Assembly: GCA_016784965.1 (NCBI GenBank)
Contig: JADHTQ010000010.1
Span: forward strand, 1 to 64,000
Reading direction: 5' to 3'
Length of the DNA stretch: 64,000 nt
From: Bacteriovoracaceae bacterium
GTDB taxonomy: Bacteria; Bdellovibrionota; Bacteriovoracia; Bacteriovoracales; Bacteriovoracaceae
Position 1 is the stretch's first letter. The number at the start of each line of letters is the position of its first letter. Position numbers and translations under genes: made by a program. Positions 10,198 to 22,762 of the stretch are shown piece by piece. The notes under the pieces are model-generated. The model ran no database searches. It was given only the letters and a program-made list of their open reading frames with translations, and had not been told where the DNA came from.

Positions 10198-10980
10198 TTA
10201 TGGGTGCTTGCTTTTTGTCCAGTAGTACTTAAACAGGTCCATGAAATAACCGTTATAATAGTTATTGTCACTGAGTCCGATGGCATGTTCGATGCTACTT
10301 CTATCAAGGCTAAAGCGGTCTGCATTGGTAACAATTAAAATGGCATTGCGATCAGGTGTCATCTCTAACATGCTATTGTACCACTGTCTTTCGGTAAGAG
10401 GTTTGTCAAAAACAGGGTCGATGGCCCACCATCCTTTTTTATCTGACTTAATGATAGTGGTTACATGAAATCCCCACTCACCTTGCTCATTTCTTTCCAC
10501 GTAGTCCCAGAGCTTTAAATCAGCTCTTTGGTGGGGCTTTAGGTCGCCGATAACCCAAAGTTTCAAAACTCTATTTTGATCAACGCCGCGCTGCGCTGCC
10601 TCCATGTTTACTGCTACTGCACGCCCAAAACAGAAGCCATTTTCACAATTTGGGTCATACTTTTTTAAAGCACCAAGCCCTGCGACAGGGTTTTGGGCCA
10701 CATTATCATAGATTAATTGCGCTGTTTCTTTAGAGATTCCCTCCAAGTTGTTTGGATGGGACATGAATGGAGTATTTGCAATCATATCTTTTAACAGAGC
10801 ATTATTTCTGTCTCGAGTGACCTTTGGAGGGAATTCTGTTACTAGCCACAAATTGTCCATTGATGCAGTAACAAAGCGGTTAAGAGGGGCAAAGCAAGCT
10901 GAATCAAAATCTGGTTGTGTAGCGAATGAATTAATTTGAATCGCAAAACAAATTGTAAATAGTAAAATACGTGCTGTCAT
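10198..10980 (-). CDS. exported protein-glutaminase-like (papain-fold deamidase) enzyme
   Basis: The 260 residues begin with a signal peptide (ILLFTICFAIQINSFA). The core has NGFCFGRAVAVNME (Cys117), WGFHVTTIIKSD (His172) and WWAIDPVFDKPLTERQW (Asp188). This order and context (FCFGRA, GxHV, then a strand ending in IDP with a downstream P-T-x-x-x-W) match the Cys-His-Asp triad of bacterial protein-glutamine deamidases (protein glutaminase family). Such enzymes convert side-chain Gln to Glu in proteins. Cys112 could form a disulfide. The protein is exported, so its target would be envelope or prey protein (inference). A transglutaminase or papain-like protease is the alternative. The family match is from motif memory, not a search. 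Confidence 0.55.
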   Translation of the reverse strand: MTARILLFTICFAIQINSFATQPDFDSACFAPLNRFVTASMDNLWLVTEFPPKVTRDRNNALLKDMIANTPFMSHPNNLEGISKETAQLIYDNVAQNPVAGLGALKKYDPNCENGFCFGRAVAVNMEAAQRGVDQNRVLKLWVIGDLKPHQRADLKLWDYVERNEQGEWGFHVTTIIKSDKKGWWAIDPVFDKPLTERQWYNSMLEMTPDRNAILIVTNADRFSLDRSSIEHAIGLSDNNYYNGYFMDLFKYYWTKSKHP

Positions 10981-12557: not shown

Positions 12558-12693
12558 ATGTTTTGTTAACTACCTTAATATAAATTTTACATGCACAATT
12601 TTTTTACTTGTTCATCCGTAATCGATTAGCTAGAACCACCCCACAATTTTAAAAATATCTTAAGGATTAAACAGGTTTTTGCTGGGGTTTTTT

Positions 12694-15318
12694 ATGAAGT
12701 CAAGATTAGTCGTAATCATTTTATTTGTTGTCAATTTATTCATTACTACAAATTTAACTCATGCTTCTGTGATATGTGCCAGAGGTGCTAGTAGTATAGT
12801 TTCGGGATCAACGAGCACCCAGAGAGTTAGTTACAAAGAACTTGTCACCTCCCCGTATAAGCTAAGATTAAAGGCACCAGATGGCAGAGAAGTAGAATTA
12901 AGTTCTGCCAATTACCTTTTAAACAATGATGGTTCGGCAAAAGCATACATTAAAGATTTTGTTGCAGGTCTTTTAACAAGAAGCCCACAACAAAATCAAA
13001 CACTCTTTCAAAAGATGGCCAAAGAGCATGGCCTTCGCGAGATGACTTTTAAAGTTAAAGATAAAACGACCGGTAAATACGATAAAATCTTCACTGTTTC
13101 ATTTAATGGTGTGGCACCGATTACAAAACAATATTACGATGAATTAATTGGCTCTACCGCTCCAATGATGCAAGCAATGAGGGATTTATTACAAAGAATT
13201 TACTCAAGTAATGCACCTACGGCCCAAAACCTTGGGATTGCTGGTCTTCCAAAGGATGTACAAGACCTCTTTTTAAGAGTCATAAATGAAACTATTTATC
13301 TAGAGAAAAAACTTCGCGATCCAAGGATGAAAGATTATCCCTTCCTCCCCGTTGCAGGGTTTGACGCTGCTGTTGGTAACCTCGATAAAATGAAGCCTGT
13401 TTTTTATGAAGTAAATGACTCTACTCCCAGTGGGCTCTCAAACCAGATCCAATTGATGGATGTGTTCCGTCAACAAGCACCAGAATTGTTTAGCAAAATT
13501 GAAGGGCAGATACCTGCAGACAAAACATTTAAATTATTAAAAGCGGCAATTGATGATAATGCAAAAGCTTGGACTGGAAGATCTGATGGCATCTCAGTTG
13601 TTATCTCTCCGGGAATTTTCAATGGTGCACACCCCGATGTTGCCTCTATCGCTCAGTTTTCAGGAATGCCTCTAGTAAGGGTTCAAGATTTATATACAGA
13701 TGTTGCAGGCAACATTCGCTTAAATATTGGTAAAAATAAAGATAACCCAGTTGTTACAGGTGTCTATAATAGGATGGAGACATCTTTTTTGCTGCAGTCA
13801 AATAAGCGAGGTGTTCCACTTATTAGCCCATACTATGAGGATAATGTGGAAGTAGGAAGACGCCTAGGGGTAGATTTACGTCCTGGAGTAATTTATCGAT
13901 TTAAATATGATGCCCAAGAAGAAATTATTGGAGTAGAGCTAGATGCACAGGGGCGACCATTGTTGGAAGAAACTTTTGAAAAGATGGGAGTTGATCCACA
14001 AAGACCCAGCAGCACTCCCGGTGAATTGATCGATGCGGTATTAGACAAGAAACTTTTTGTTAGTAATGTCGGTGGACGCGTTTTAGATGATAAGAGACTT
14101 TTTCAAGCAATGGCAGAGCATATTGCACCAAAGTATGTAAAAGATGGAAGGGCGGTTGCTGGACCTCCACGGACACTTAAAAGAGATGAATACGAGGCAT
14201 TTTATAAAAGTGATAATTTAAAAGGTTACGTAGTTAAAGCACCTGATATGTCAGGAGGAGACGGAATTTATCTCATGGTAAATTTAACTCCCCAAAAACA
14301 ACAAGAAGTTGTTAAGATGGTACAACTTAATCCTGATCGTTATATCATACAAGAGTTTGCAGATGTATCTGTAATTACAAGACCAGAAGTTAGTCAGTCT
14401 GGTGAGGTTGTAATGGGCACCGGTGCCTTAGATTGGAGAGTATTTCCTGTACAGTTTGCTGATGGGACGGTAGATGCTGGGACGAACTCACTTTTAATCA
14501 GAACTGCAGGTGAAGGCAGTGCTTCTACTAACACCTCACAAGGTGGTGGATATGGGTTGGGACTTGTTCTTGAGGAGTTGCCAAGCAATAAAAACTTAGG
14601 TCGCAAATCGATGATTCCAAATGCAAAGAAACACTCGTATGTTGGTATGTCAAGGCAGAATGAAGTTTCAGAATTTGTTGAGCAATTAAACTTTCTTACA
14701 GATATGACTGCTCCTGGTAATAATGTGAAAGTGTTAAAAGAAACAGTTGAAACGCTAGTAAATTTAAACAGAAGTGTGATGGACCTATTTGGAAGAGACC
14801 TTTCCTACTTCATGACAGTCAGTAGAAACTTCCAAGATGGTCAATTAACTCGTCAGGAATATCATCAGCAAATTTTAGACTTTAGATCAAAGTTGCAAAA
14901 AGGAGATTTTGCGGTTGATGGTCTAGATGCAAGAGTTAAAAGTACATTGGCAAAATATAAGAGCGTAGATTATGTGACATTTTCGCGCATTCAAAGAGAA
15001 AATGTACAGGCCTTTGCCAAACAAGTAAACTTTTTCGATGAGCTGACTCAGGCAAATAATGAAATAGAGATTTTAGACACAACTTTTGGCTACTACTTTG
15101 ATCTTGCAAAAAACATGGTAGGCCTTGTAGATCAAAAGACACTTGATGCATTTGAAAGTGCCATCACAGGATACCAAAGTGGACAACTCTCAAGGCAAAC
15201 CCTACGCCTAGAAGTTTTACGTTTGAGAAAAGCATTGAGGACACAAGACTACAGTGTTGAGGGCCTAGATCAGTTGATGAGTCAAACTTTAAAGTTAAAA
15301 AAAAAACACCTTTTTTAG
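12694..15318 (+). CDS. exported circularly permuted ATP-grasp protein, zero-frame product
   Basis: I start at the ATG at 12694, which gives the signal peptide MKSRLVVIILFVVNLFI; a TTG at 12679 would add five residues. The product has 874 residues. The body matches the circularly permuted ATP-grasp (type 2, DUF404/407-like) group: EVNDSTPSGLSN, VVISPGIFNGAHPD, KAPDMSGGDGIYLM, ALDWRVFPVQ and NTSQGGGYG. Relatives are thought to be peptide or amide ligases and are often found with transglutaminase-like and alpha-E genes. Two about-65-residue helical repeats follow (about 692-757 and 801-870), each with GQL-RQ and V-GLD. The frame stops just after a run of ten A, and a second module continues in the -1 frame. 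ATP-grasp fold: confident; export: likely; reaction: unknown. Confidence 0.75.
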   Translation: MKSRLVVIILFVVNLFITTNLTHASVICARGASSIVSGSTSTQRVSYKELVTSPYKLRLKAPDGREVELSSANYLLNNDGSAKAYIKDFVAGLLTRSPQQNQTLFQKMAKEHGLREMTFKVKDKTTGKYDKIFTVSFNGVAPITKQYYDELIGSTAPMMQAMRDLLQRIYSSNAPTAQNLGIAGLPKDVQDLFLRVINETIYLEKKLRDPRMKDYPFLPVAGFDAAVGNLDKMKPVFYEVNDSTPSGLSNQIQLMDVFRQQAPELFSKIEGQIPADKTFKLLKAAIDDNAKAWTGRSDGISVVISPGIFNGAHPDVASIAQFSGMPLVRVQDLYTDVAGNIRLNIGKNKDNPVVTGVYNRMETSFLLQSNKRGVPLISPYYEDNVEVGRRLGVDLRPGVIYRFKYDAQEEIIGVELDAQGRPLLEETFEKMGVDPQRPSSTPGELIDAVLDKKLFVSNVGGRVLDDKRLFQAMAEHIAPKYVKDGRAVAGPPRTLKRDEYEAFYKSDNLKGYVVKAPDMSGGDGIYLMVNLTPQKQQEVVKMVQLNPDRYIIQEFADVSVITRPEVSQSGEVVMGTGALDWRVFPVQFADGTVDAGTNSLLIRTAGEGSASTNTSQGGGYGLGLVLEELPSNKNLGRKSMIPNAKKHSYVGMSRQNEVSEFVEQLNFLTDMTAPGNNVKVLKETVETLVNLNRSVMDLFGRDLSYFMTVSRNFQDGQLTRQEYHQQILDFRSKLQKGDFAVDGLDARVKSTLAKYKSVDYVTFSRIQRENVQAFAKQVNFFDELTQANNEIEILDTTFGYYFDLAKNMVGLVDQKTLDAFESAITGYQSGQLSRQTLRLEVLRLRKALRTQDYSVEGLDQLMSQTLKLKKKHLF
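15297..15306 (+). promoter_or_regulatory. A10 slippery tract at the frame change
   Basis: Ten consecutive A, read in the zero frame as the last base of TTA followed by three AAA codons. They lie exactly where the ATP-grasp gene changes frame, and the zero frame ends at TAG 15316-15318. A -1 ribosomal slip, or RNA polymerase adding one A, joins both frames. No downstream hairpin was found. Confidence 0.5.
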
Positions 15319-16181
15319 ATAGAACAAGCCGCTCATTCATTGCTGCCAACTTTGATACGGTAGCTACCTCAACACCACTGCCCAACCGTGAACTTCTAAG
15401 AGAAGGCATCGCCAGTGGCAACCCATATAAACTTTATGAAGTAGCAACACTTGAGGTCGTAAATAATAAATTTGCAGCAGAGATTCTTACGGAGTTAAAA
15501 GGATTTAAAGGTGAGATTAGAACTGCAGTCATTGAAACACCATCAACGTCAAGCTTGTTTAAAAATGGTATATCAAGCTTTAGAGTGACTGAAGATGGAA
15601 GACCCATAATTACAATTGATAAAACAAACACAAACCTTTACTCCTCACTTGCACACGAATATGAACACTTTAAGTATTGGAAACAGTGGGTGTTAAAATA
15701 TCAAAACTTAGGTGAGGATTTATCTTCAGCTAAAAGACTTGCAAACTATAAGGTTTTTGAAACAGACAAGCGTTTTATTTCTGAACAACTGGCAGTAGAA
15801 GCAGAAATTAGAATGGATATGAGTCTCTCCAAATCATTCTTAAAAGACAAAGTAACCATTCGATCCATTGAAGAGTCATTTGATGACGGCCTCTACTCAA
15901 GACGTCTATACCCCTACAGTGAAGCTATACGCGATATTTTACACAAAGAAAAATGGAGTAGCACACCAATAGATTGGACTCTACTTAAAAAATATCTAGA
16001 TGAATCCATAGCATATGTCAAAGAACATTCCGATGAAGAGCTAGATGCCCAAGCTGTATTTTCTAGAATATGCACACCAAGCAGAGAAGATCAATTCAGG
16101 ACAGATCAAACATTTGATCGCCTCAAACAAATATATAACTGGCACACCACTGCATCAGTCATGATCAACCAACAACAATAA
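15306..16181 (+). CDS. zincin-like C-terminal module in the -1 frame of the ATP-grasp gene
   Basis: From 15306 the -1 frame is open to 16181 and continues the repeat region without a visible start: TPFLDRTSRSFIAANFDTV and onward. The first possible start codon (TTG at 15555) has no ribosome site and lies in the middle of clearly coding sequence. About 115 residues in, LAHEYEHFKYW holds an HExxH zinc motif (codons 15654-15668). Glutamates in EQLAVEAEIRMD about 50 residues later could give a third ligand, as in gluzincins. Expressed through -1 slippage on the A10 tract, the joined protein would have about 1162 residues. A true frameshift mutation or homopolymer read error would look the same. 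Confidence 0.6.
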   Translation, partial: TPFLDRTSRSFIAANFDTVATSTPLPNRELLREGIASGNPYKLYEVATLEVVNNKFAAEILTELKGFKGEIRTAVIETPSTSSLFKNGISSFRVTEDGRPIITIDKTNTNLYSSLAHEYEHFKYWKQWVLKYQNLGEDLSSAKRLANYKVFETDKRFISEQLAVEAEIRMDMSLSKSFLKDKVTIRSIEESFDDGLYSRRLYPYSEAIRDILHKEKWSSTPIDWTLLKKYLDESIAYVKEHSDEELDAQAVFSRICTPSREDQFRTDQTFDRLKQIYNWHTTASVMINQQQ

Positions 16182-16538
16182 TTTCTCCTAAAAGGTTCTA
16201 AAAGGTTCCAGGTTCCTAAAAGGGACGCATAGCGTCCCCTTTAGGAACCTGGAACCTTTTCCGAACCTTTTCCATTTAGGAACCTGTAACCTTTTCCCAG
16301 CATATACATTAATTTGTGCATTAGAGTTTTAACCATTGGCCTCTCCAAATGAAATAAAATTCATAAGATGAATATAAAAAAATCTAATCAAGGCATTTAA
16401 CGCAATTTTTGAGCTATGGATTTAATATGCAAGAGAGCATTTTGGCACATTTAATTTCAATATATTGGACCAAGATGTTTTGATTACTTTTTAACTTAAA
16501 TGTATAAATAGTTGTTATATGTAAAATATTAGACAGGT
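16182..16538. other. non-coding stretch with palindromic repeat
   Basis: This 357-base gap between convergent genes holds a long palindrome with flanking partial copies in its first 120 bases (entered separately). From about 16301 to 16538 the DNA is very AT-rich, and I see no gene, promoter or structured element in it. Confidence 0.7.
16188..16299. repeat. 29-bp-arm palindrome with GGTTCC partial copies
   Basis: Arms 16200-16228 and 16232-16260 are inverted copies (28 of 29 positions) around a 3-base loop. They start AAAAGGTTCCAGGTTCC and meet at GGGACGC/GCGTCCC. The AAAAGGTT motif is also present left of the arm (16190-16197), and AACCTTTTCC recurs right of it (16264-16273 and 16288-16297), with a further TTTAGGAACCTGTAACC copy. 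It could end transcription from both sides, but the design (nested arms with repeated outer units) resembles a REP/MITE-like mobile palindrome. Confidence 0.7.
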
Positions 16539-22231: not shown

Positions 22232-22762
22232 CTAACTTCCAATGTTTCCAAAGACAATCTTGCTAAAAAGGTCTTTTATTCGAACATCGAGACCATCTTT
22301 GTCTTTTTGATAAATCGCTTCGTCAGTATTACTTAGAGTGCGAACGCTATCCATAACCTTTACTAGCTCTTCATATTTAATATCTACGATGGGTTCAACA
22401 ATAATACTTTTTTCTCTGACGTGTCTTTTTTTAAGTTTAATAAGGTAGTCGTGCAGAGACAAAAGGTCATATTGTCCATTTATCATGCGACCAAACCGCT
22501 TAACATAGGTGCTTGGAACTCCAGTGTAGACTTTTATATCGTTGGCAGTTAGCTTTAGCGTCAATGCCAGTGGTGGTTTTTTGCTCTTAGGTGGTGGCTG
22601 ATTTGAAACGATAGGTATATCACTTGAGATTTCAAATATTTTAGTAAAGTTTGCTGACATCAAAAGAAAGAAAATGAAAATAAATACAGCATCTAAAATG
22701 GGTATCAGATTGGGGGCCGATATTTTATGTTTCTTTTTCTTTCTGCTTGGTACCCGGTACAT
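22232..22762 (-). CDS. ExbD/TolR-family protein 1
   Basis: The 176-residue protein has a Lys-rich start (VPSRKKKKHK), then APNLIPILDAVFIFIFFLL, in which Asp24 is the expected proton-translocating residue, and a periplasmic region. It is the middle gene of the exbB-exbD-exbD cassette, 3 bases after exbB and 8 bases before the second ExbD gene. The periplasmic parts of the two ExbD proteins differ, suggesting a heteromeric stator. Confidence 0.85.
   Translation of the reverse strand: MYRVPSRKKKKHKISAPNLIPILDAVFIFIFFLLMSANFTKIFEISSDIPIVSNQPPPKSKKPPLALTLKLTANDIKVYTGVPSTYVKRFGRMINGQYDLLSLHDYLIKLKKRHVREKSIIVEPIVDIKYEELVKVMDSVRTLSNTDEAIYQKDKDGLDVRIKDLFSKIVFGNIGS

Follow-up and report, generated by a model that had tools for sequence, protein, structure and literature searches.

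The locus and its frame change

The window, by which we mean the whole stretch of 64,000 nucleotides that was analysed, has a G+C content of 37.6% and belongs to an assembly of 4.59 Mb in 126 contigs. The features of the locus are collected in Table 1. The zero-frame open reading frame starts at 12679, where a TTG is listed, has an ATG at 12694 and closes with a TAG at 15316–15318, and it is followed in the -1 frame by a module with an HExxH motif that reaches its stop codon at 16179–16181. The run of ten A is flanked by T and C and its length is exactly ten. No other A10 occurs on either strand of the window, and the gene at 12694–16181 has no other run of A or T of at least seven.

Table 1. 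Coordinates of the features at the ATP-grasp/HExxH locus (positions in the window)
Feature	Position	Strand	Remarks
Zero-frame ORF, circularly permuted ATP-grasp, exported-looking	12694–15318	+	PF14403, PF04174
Duplicated segment, first copy, ~85 residues	14728–14980	+	Ends approximate
Duplicated segment, second copy, extending to the A10	15067–15306	+	Ends approximate; no counterpart in six relatives
Run of ten A	15297–15306	+	Frame-change point; coding signal switches frame here
-1-frame continuation, HExxH module, C-terminal QQQ	15306–16181	+	Aligned with six relatives, 15 invariant columns
HEYEH motif	15654–15668	+	Module residues H117, E118 and H121 unchanged in 7/7

The original prediction had placed a change from the zero frame to the -1 frame at this run, and this observation was confirmed, the coding signal moving from one frame to the other in sliding windows at about 15220–15310. 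The zero frame does end shortly after the run, with nine bases between the run and the TAG. Likewise, the -1 frame is open over a long distance, 291 residues from 15306 to the stop, and it opens at 15261, upstream of the run. The earliest ATG, GTG or TTG in this frame is a TTG at 15555, 249 bases into the HExxH module. The two frames are open together only at 15261–15318, an overlap of 58 bases, and a frame change away from the A10 was rejected for this reason. The T6 directly before the stop could be a minor slip site.

The -1 part is undecayed, with no internal stop, typical codon use and GC3, a conserved HExxH and a C-terminal QQ. Its codon score was 0.157, compared to 0.185 for the zero-frame part and 0.113–0.278 for 24 other ORFs in the window, and its GC3 was 0.296 versus 0.295 for the zero-frame part. 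The other two same-strand frames of 15306–16178 contain 19 and 36 stops. A scan for promoters and terminators gave counts at or below those of shuffled sequences. A palindromic repeat lies directly 3′ of the gene at 16190–16271; contigs C108, C21, C16, C6, C27, C48 and C104 carry related copies. Near the locus, a protein encoded on the minus strand at 10198–10980 matched Gln_deamidase_2 (PF18626, 30.7 bits, cut-off 25).

The ATP-grasp part and the HExxH module

The zero-frame protein matched PF14403 with 77.3 bits (cut-off 32) and PF04174 with 55.4 bits (cut-off 23.1), thus above both curated cut-offs, and it matched 3n6x, a putative glutathionylspermidine synthase, with an E value of 1.6e-10. 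In this it resembles the circularly permuted ATP-grasp proteins. It differs from them in being joined to an HExxH module and in having an N-terminus that looks, by eye, like a signal peptide, which is an odd thing to find ahead of a fold that uses ATP. The region upstream of the A10 also carries a tandem duplication of about 85 residues, with a local score of 92 against 53 for the best of 2000 shuffles, and the alignment showed that this duplication is absent from all six closer relatives described below.

The HEYEH motif that the original prediction had placed in the -1 frame was confirmed. The HExxH is invariant in all seven aligned sequences (the window gene and six relatives), as are E160 and E167 of the module, for which any roles are putative, and six of the seven modules end in QQ. 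An AlphaFold2 model made with seven sequences had a mean pLDDT of 74.9, with most ten-residue blocks between residues 91 and 170 above 90. A Foldseek search with the model of the module gave nothing at E ≤ 0.001. With VIA-align, 191 of 994 chains reached Z ≥ 2 and none reached Z ≥ 8; the rows with HExxH or zincin proteins had Z values of about 5–5.6, which is under the trusted level. No Pfam family matched the module above its cut-off, and no NCBIfam model fitted either the ATP-grasp part or the module. It is plausible that the module is a zinc peptidase.

Relatives encode both modules in a single frame

A profile scan of the genome collection, made with an alignment, found nine loci, and a query with the single protein found none. 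All nine are in metagenome-assembled genomes assigned to Bacteriovoracaceae, Bdellovibrionales, Bdellovibrionia, Oligoflexia, Silvanigrellales or Deltaproteobacteria. Every closer relative in which both modules are complete (6/6) encodes the ATP-grasp part and the HExxH module in one frame of 1071–1379 codons, with the motifs HEFQH, HELAH, HEFGH, HEHGH, HEFGH and HEREH. Left out of this count were L059 and L061 (cut at contig end) and L060, which has no HExxH; L054 with G083:C30 and L057 with G025:C9 were each counted once. In the full alignment, the -1 part of the window gene matched the C-terminal parts of the six relatives, and identity to them was 33–44% before the junction and 23–28% after it. 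Seven more distant relatives (L015/L035, L016, L017, L018, L019, L025 and L024, the last cut on its 5′ side) combine an ATP-grasp match with an HExxH in a single open frame, the motif being located by eye. Among the 17 loci of this distant set, L022, L023, L026 and L027 were set aside as fragments or different proteins.

Because the relatives encode both modules in a single frame, we regard 12694–16181 as one gene, of which the ATP-grasp and HExxH pieces are the two halves, and the earlier suggestion that the two frames belong together was upheld, as was the -1 relation between them. The alternative that there are two separate genes, the second of which begins by re-initiation, could draw on the overlap between the first stop and the second opening, and it is extremely unlikely given that the first usual start is the TTG deep inside the module and that the relatives make one protein. 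A separate downstream gene was rejected on the same two grounds.

The longest run of A or T in the gene of the six closer relatives is seven, and four of the six have no run of seven or more. Since all six are single-frame and none has a run longer than seven, neither the run nor the break is conserved. From this comparison the break is private to this assembly at the distance covered, which lies beyond the genus: the 58 other genomes compared and the 24 of 129 genomes listed included no member of the same genus. A single frame in relatives had been named beforehand as the observation that would speak against programmed slippage, and it is what we found, although the run was wholly absent rather than changed in length.

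Signals for ribosomal slippage

Programmed -1 ribosomal frameshifting would use the heptamer A_AAA_AAA, which is present within the run in the correct phase. Folds downstream of the A10 were no better than those of shuffled sequences (z -0.38, 0.24 and 1.06), a fold that included the A10 was likewise not above shuffles (z 0.33), and by eye no Shine-Dalgarno-like site was seen directly upstream of the run. With a slip site in phase, but with neither a stimulatory structure nor an upstream site of this kind, and with no conservation, ribosomal frameshifting is very unlikely. Programmed slippage, the explanation that the original prediction put first, was not supported: the run and the break were found in 0/6 closer relatives and no RNA structure exceeded the shuffles.

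Long A-runs elsewhere in the assembly

Exact counts on both strands of the whole assembly gave 219 A9, 18 A10 including the one in this gene, and 7 runs of at least 11. In the window, runs of three to six A decreased about 0.42-fold with each additional A, compared to a ratio of 0.08 from A9 to A10 in the genome, so that runs of at least ten seem to be avoided. The observation is of the same kind as that of Baranov et al. (PMC1088944), who find that runs prone to slippage are selected against, in many genomes starting at a length of nine, and who name hypermutability as a second cause.

We also measured how often runs within long open frames coincide with a frame switch. All 25 runs of at least ten and 83 of the 219 A9 were sampled, and the A6–A9 runs were those found in stretches chosen mostly around runs of nine or more. 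Runs outside long open frames were excluded from the rates, namely 390 A6, 150 A7, 37 A8, 39 A9 and 16 of the 25 runs of at least ten, among them an A10 shortly after an apparent start (L051) and an A19 that is apparently in frame (L095). The A19 (~1502–1520 of L095, contig C38) lies in the Walker-like start of an AAA-ATPase-like gene, as judged by eye, and an A13 (~1502–1514 of L098, contig C103) is apparently in frame in a gene that, again by eye, is DsbD-like.

Switches were seen at 1/369 A6, 1/165 A7, 0/66 A8, 1/44 A9 and 3/9 runs of at least ten. The rate at runs of at least ten was higher than at A6–A9 (3/9 versus 3/644, Fisher p 3.6e-5) and higher than at A8–A9 alone (3/9 versus 1/110, Fisher p 0.0012). 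Together with the single frame in the relatives, this enrichment strengthened a mutation or a homopolymer error, which the original prediction had listed as an alternative. The switches at A6 (L044, -1), A7 (L130, +1) and A9 (L140, +1) mean either that a switch can arise without a long run or that part of the counted switches are neighbouring genes.

The three switches at runs of at least ten, all -1, are in this gene, at an A11 (L099) and at another A10 (L048). L099 (1134–2224; contig C108, run at 22647) is an M23-like peptidase gene, labelled by eye, that is broken -1 at its A11. Its open frame has 244 aa; each of the 11 best relatives with loci has a single frame, of 357–400 aa, and identity to them is 56–64%. 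In L048 (C95:41219–41230, minus strand), frames of 399 and 429 codons are joined by a -1 switch at the A10. That a conserved M23 gene is broken in this assembly alone, and at a long run, points to a cause that affects long runs in general, be it DNA slippage, a mixture of strains or an error of assembly, rather than to a purpose specific to the ATP-grasp gene. Long runs are not always wrong, however, since five or six others of at least ten inside genes are in frame.

In the phase-variation alternative, replication slippage in the A10 toggles the HExxH module within the population. The product looks exported, by eye, runs of at least ten are often out of frame in this genome, and most phase-variable genes encode environment-exposed proteins according to PMC3711429. 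One allele was seen, in one assembly, and the run is missing in the relatives, which leaves phase variation quite improbable; it differs from a recent indel solely in being selected and reversible.

A recent or artefactual indel as the preferred interpretation

We consider a recent indel, or an assembly or consensus error, in a hypermutable A10 to be the best explanation, with a probability of about 0.8, as opposed to a conserved and selected frameshift switch. A single gene at 12694–16181, encoding a circularly permuted ATP-grasp protein with a C-terminal HExxH, would have been put out of frame at the A10 by an indel that is either a real recent mutation, possibly variable in the population, or an error of assembly or consensus. 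Its recent or artefactual nature is what we infer. Should the assembled DNA be wrong or mixed, the gene in the cell would be an ordinary one with a single frame. Should it be right, most translation would end at 15318, so that the ATP-grasp protein would lack the HExxH module, and RNA-polymerase slippage at the A10 may add a minor share of full-length product. Runs as long as ten A are liable to slippage of DNA polymerase as well as to transcriptional slippage, and by analogy with known cases some full-length product through transcriptional slippage is plausible. Indels and their bypass both increase with repeat length (PMC3812077); for this reason, a broken gene and a rescued one cannot be told apart by sequence alone.

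The case resembles the unclustered transitions of Antonov et al. (PMC3711429), in that the homologues are single-frame and the transition is not shared; transitions absent from the homologues are ascribed there mainly to indels or sequencing errors. It differs from them in the very long A-run, at which bypass by slippage is likelier than for an average indel.

Programmed transcriptional slippage at the A10, in which RNA polymerase produces mRNAs that differ in their count of A, would give a short ATP-grasp product and a long product that includes the HExxH module, both of them useful. The closest parallel is tssM1 of Citrobacter rodentium (PMC4256274), a gene that, like this one, is broken off soon after a long run of A (A11 in tssM1, A10 here), with the downstream frame retained and no ribosomal stimulators. 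The A11 of tssM1 gives 20–25% slippage, so the run here is long enough, the stop follows soon after it, and the -1 frame is fully retained. The scarcity of runs of at least ten fits a slippage-prone polymerase as well as it fits mutation, and selected slippage rescue would also yield three breaks of one direction; three -1 breaks are too few to tell contraction bias from slippage rescue. For tssM1, however, both products and their ratio were shown to be important, while the gene here is known from its DNA. Unlike tssM1, the run is missing in the relatives, where 0/6 have the run or the break, and the same kind of break occurs in two unrelated genes of this genome, which makes programmed transcriptional slippage quite unlikely.

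Another parallel is Blochmannia (PMC3017870), in which eight genes are off-frame at poly(A) tracts; there, as here, several conserved and otherwise undecayed genes of one genome are off-frame at A-runs. The Blochmannia genomes are reduced, very AT-rich and full of runs of nine or more A, whereas the genome here is of ordinary size, with 37.6% G+C in the window and few runs of at least ten, and rescue is hypothetical. A broader proposal, that at least three genes of this genome, whose lineage is related at family level to a Bacteriovoracaceae genome, are broken -1 at runs of ten or more A and rescued by one-correction slippage of RNA polymerase, with both forms made and used at this locus, is unlikely. 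If the DNA is right and several genes are rescued in this way, the poly(A) rescue of insect endosymbionts would be extended to an ordinary-size, predator-related genome.

For annotation, the preferred reading of a recent or artefactual indel means that the two ORFs are best annotated as a single gene and that A-runs of at least ten in this assembly are not safe ground for calling genes broken.

The ATP-grasp/HExxH fusion family

Literature searches on slippage in Bdellovibrio and Bacteriovorax, and on ATP-grasp proteins with a metallopeptidase, found nothing on this gene. The window gene groups with L054, L055, L056, L057, L058, L062 and L035 in an ATP-grasp/HExxH fusion family that looks exported by eye. 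Its members often end in QQ and occur in Bdellovibrionota-type genomes, and this uncharacterised family is perhaps more interesting than the break at the A10.
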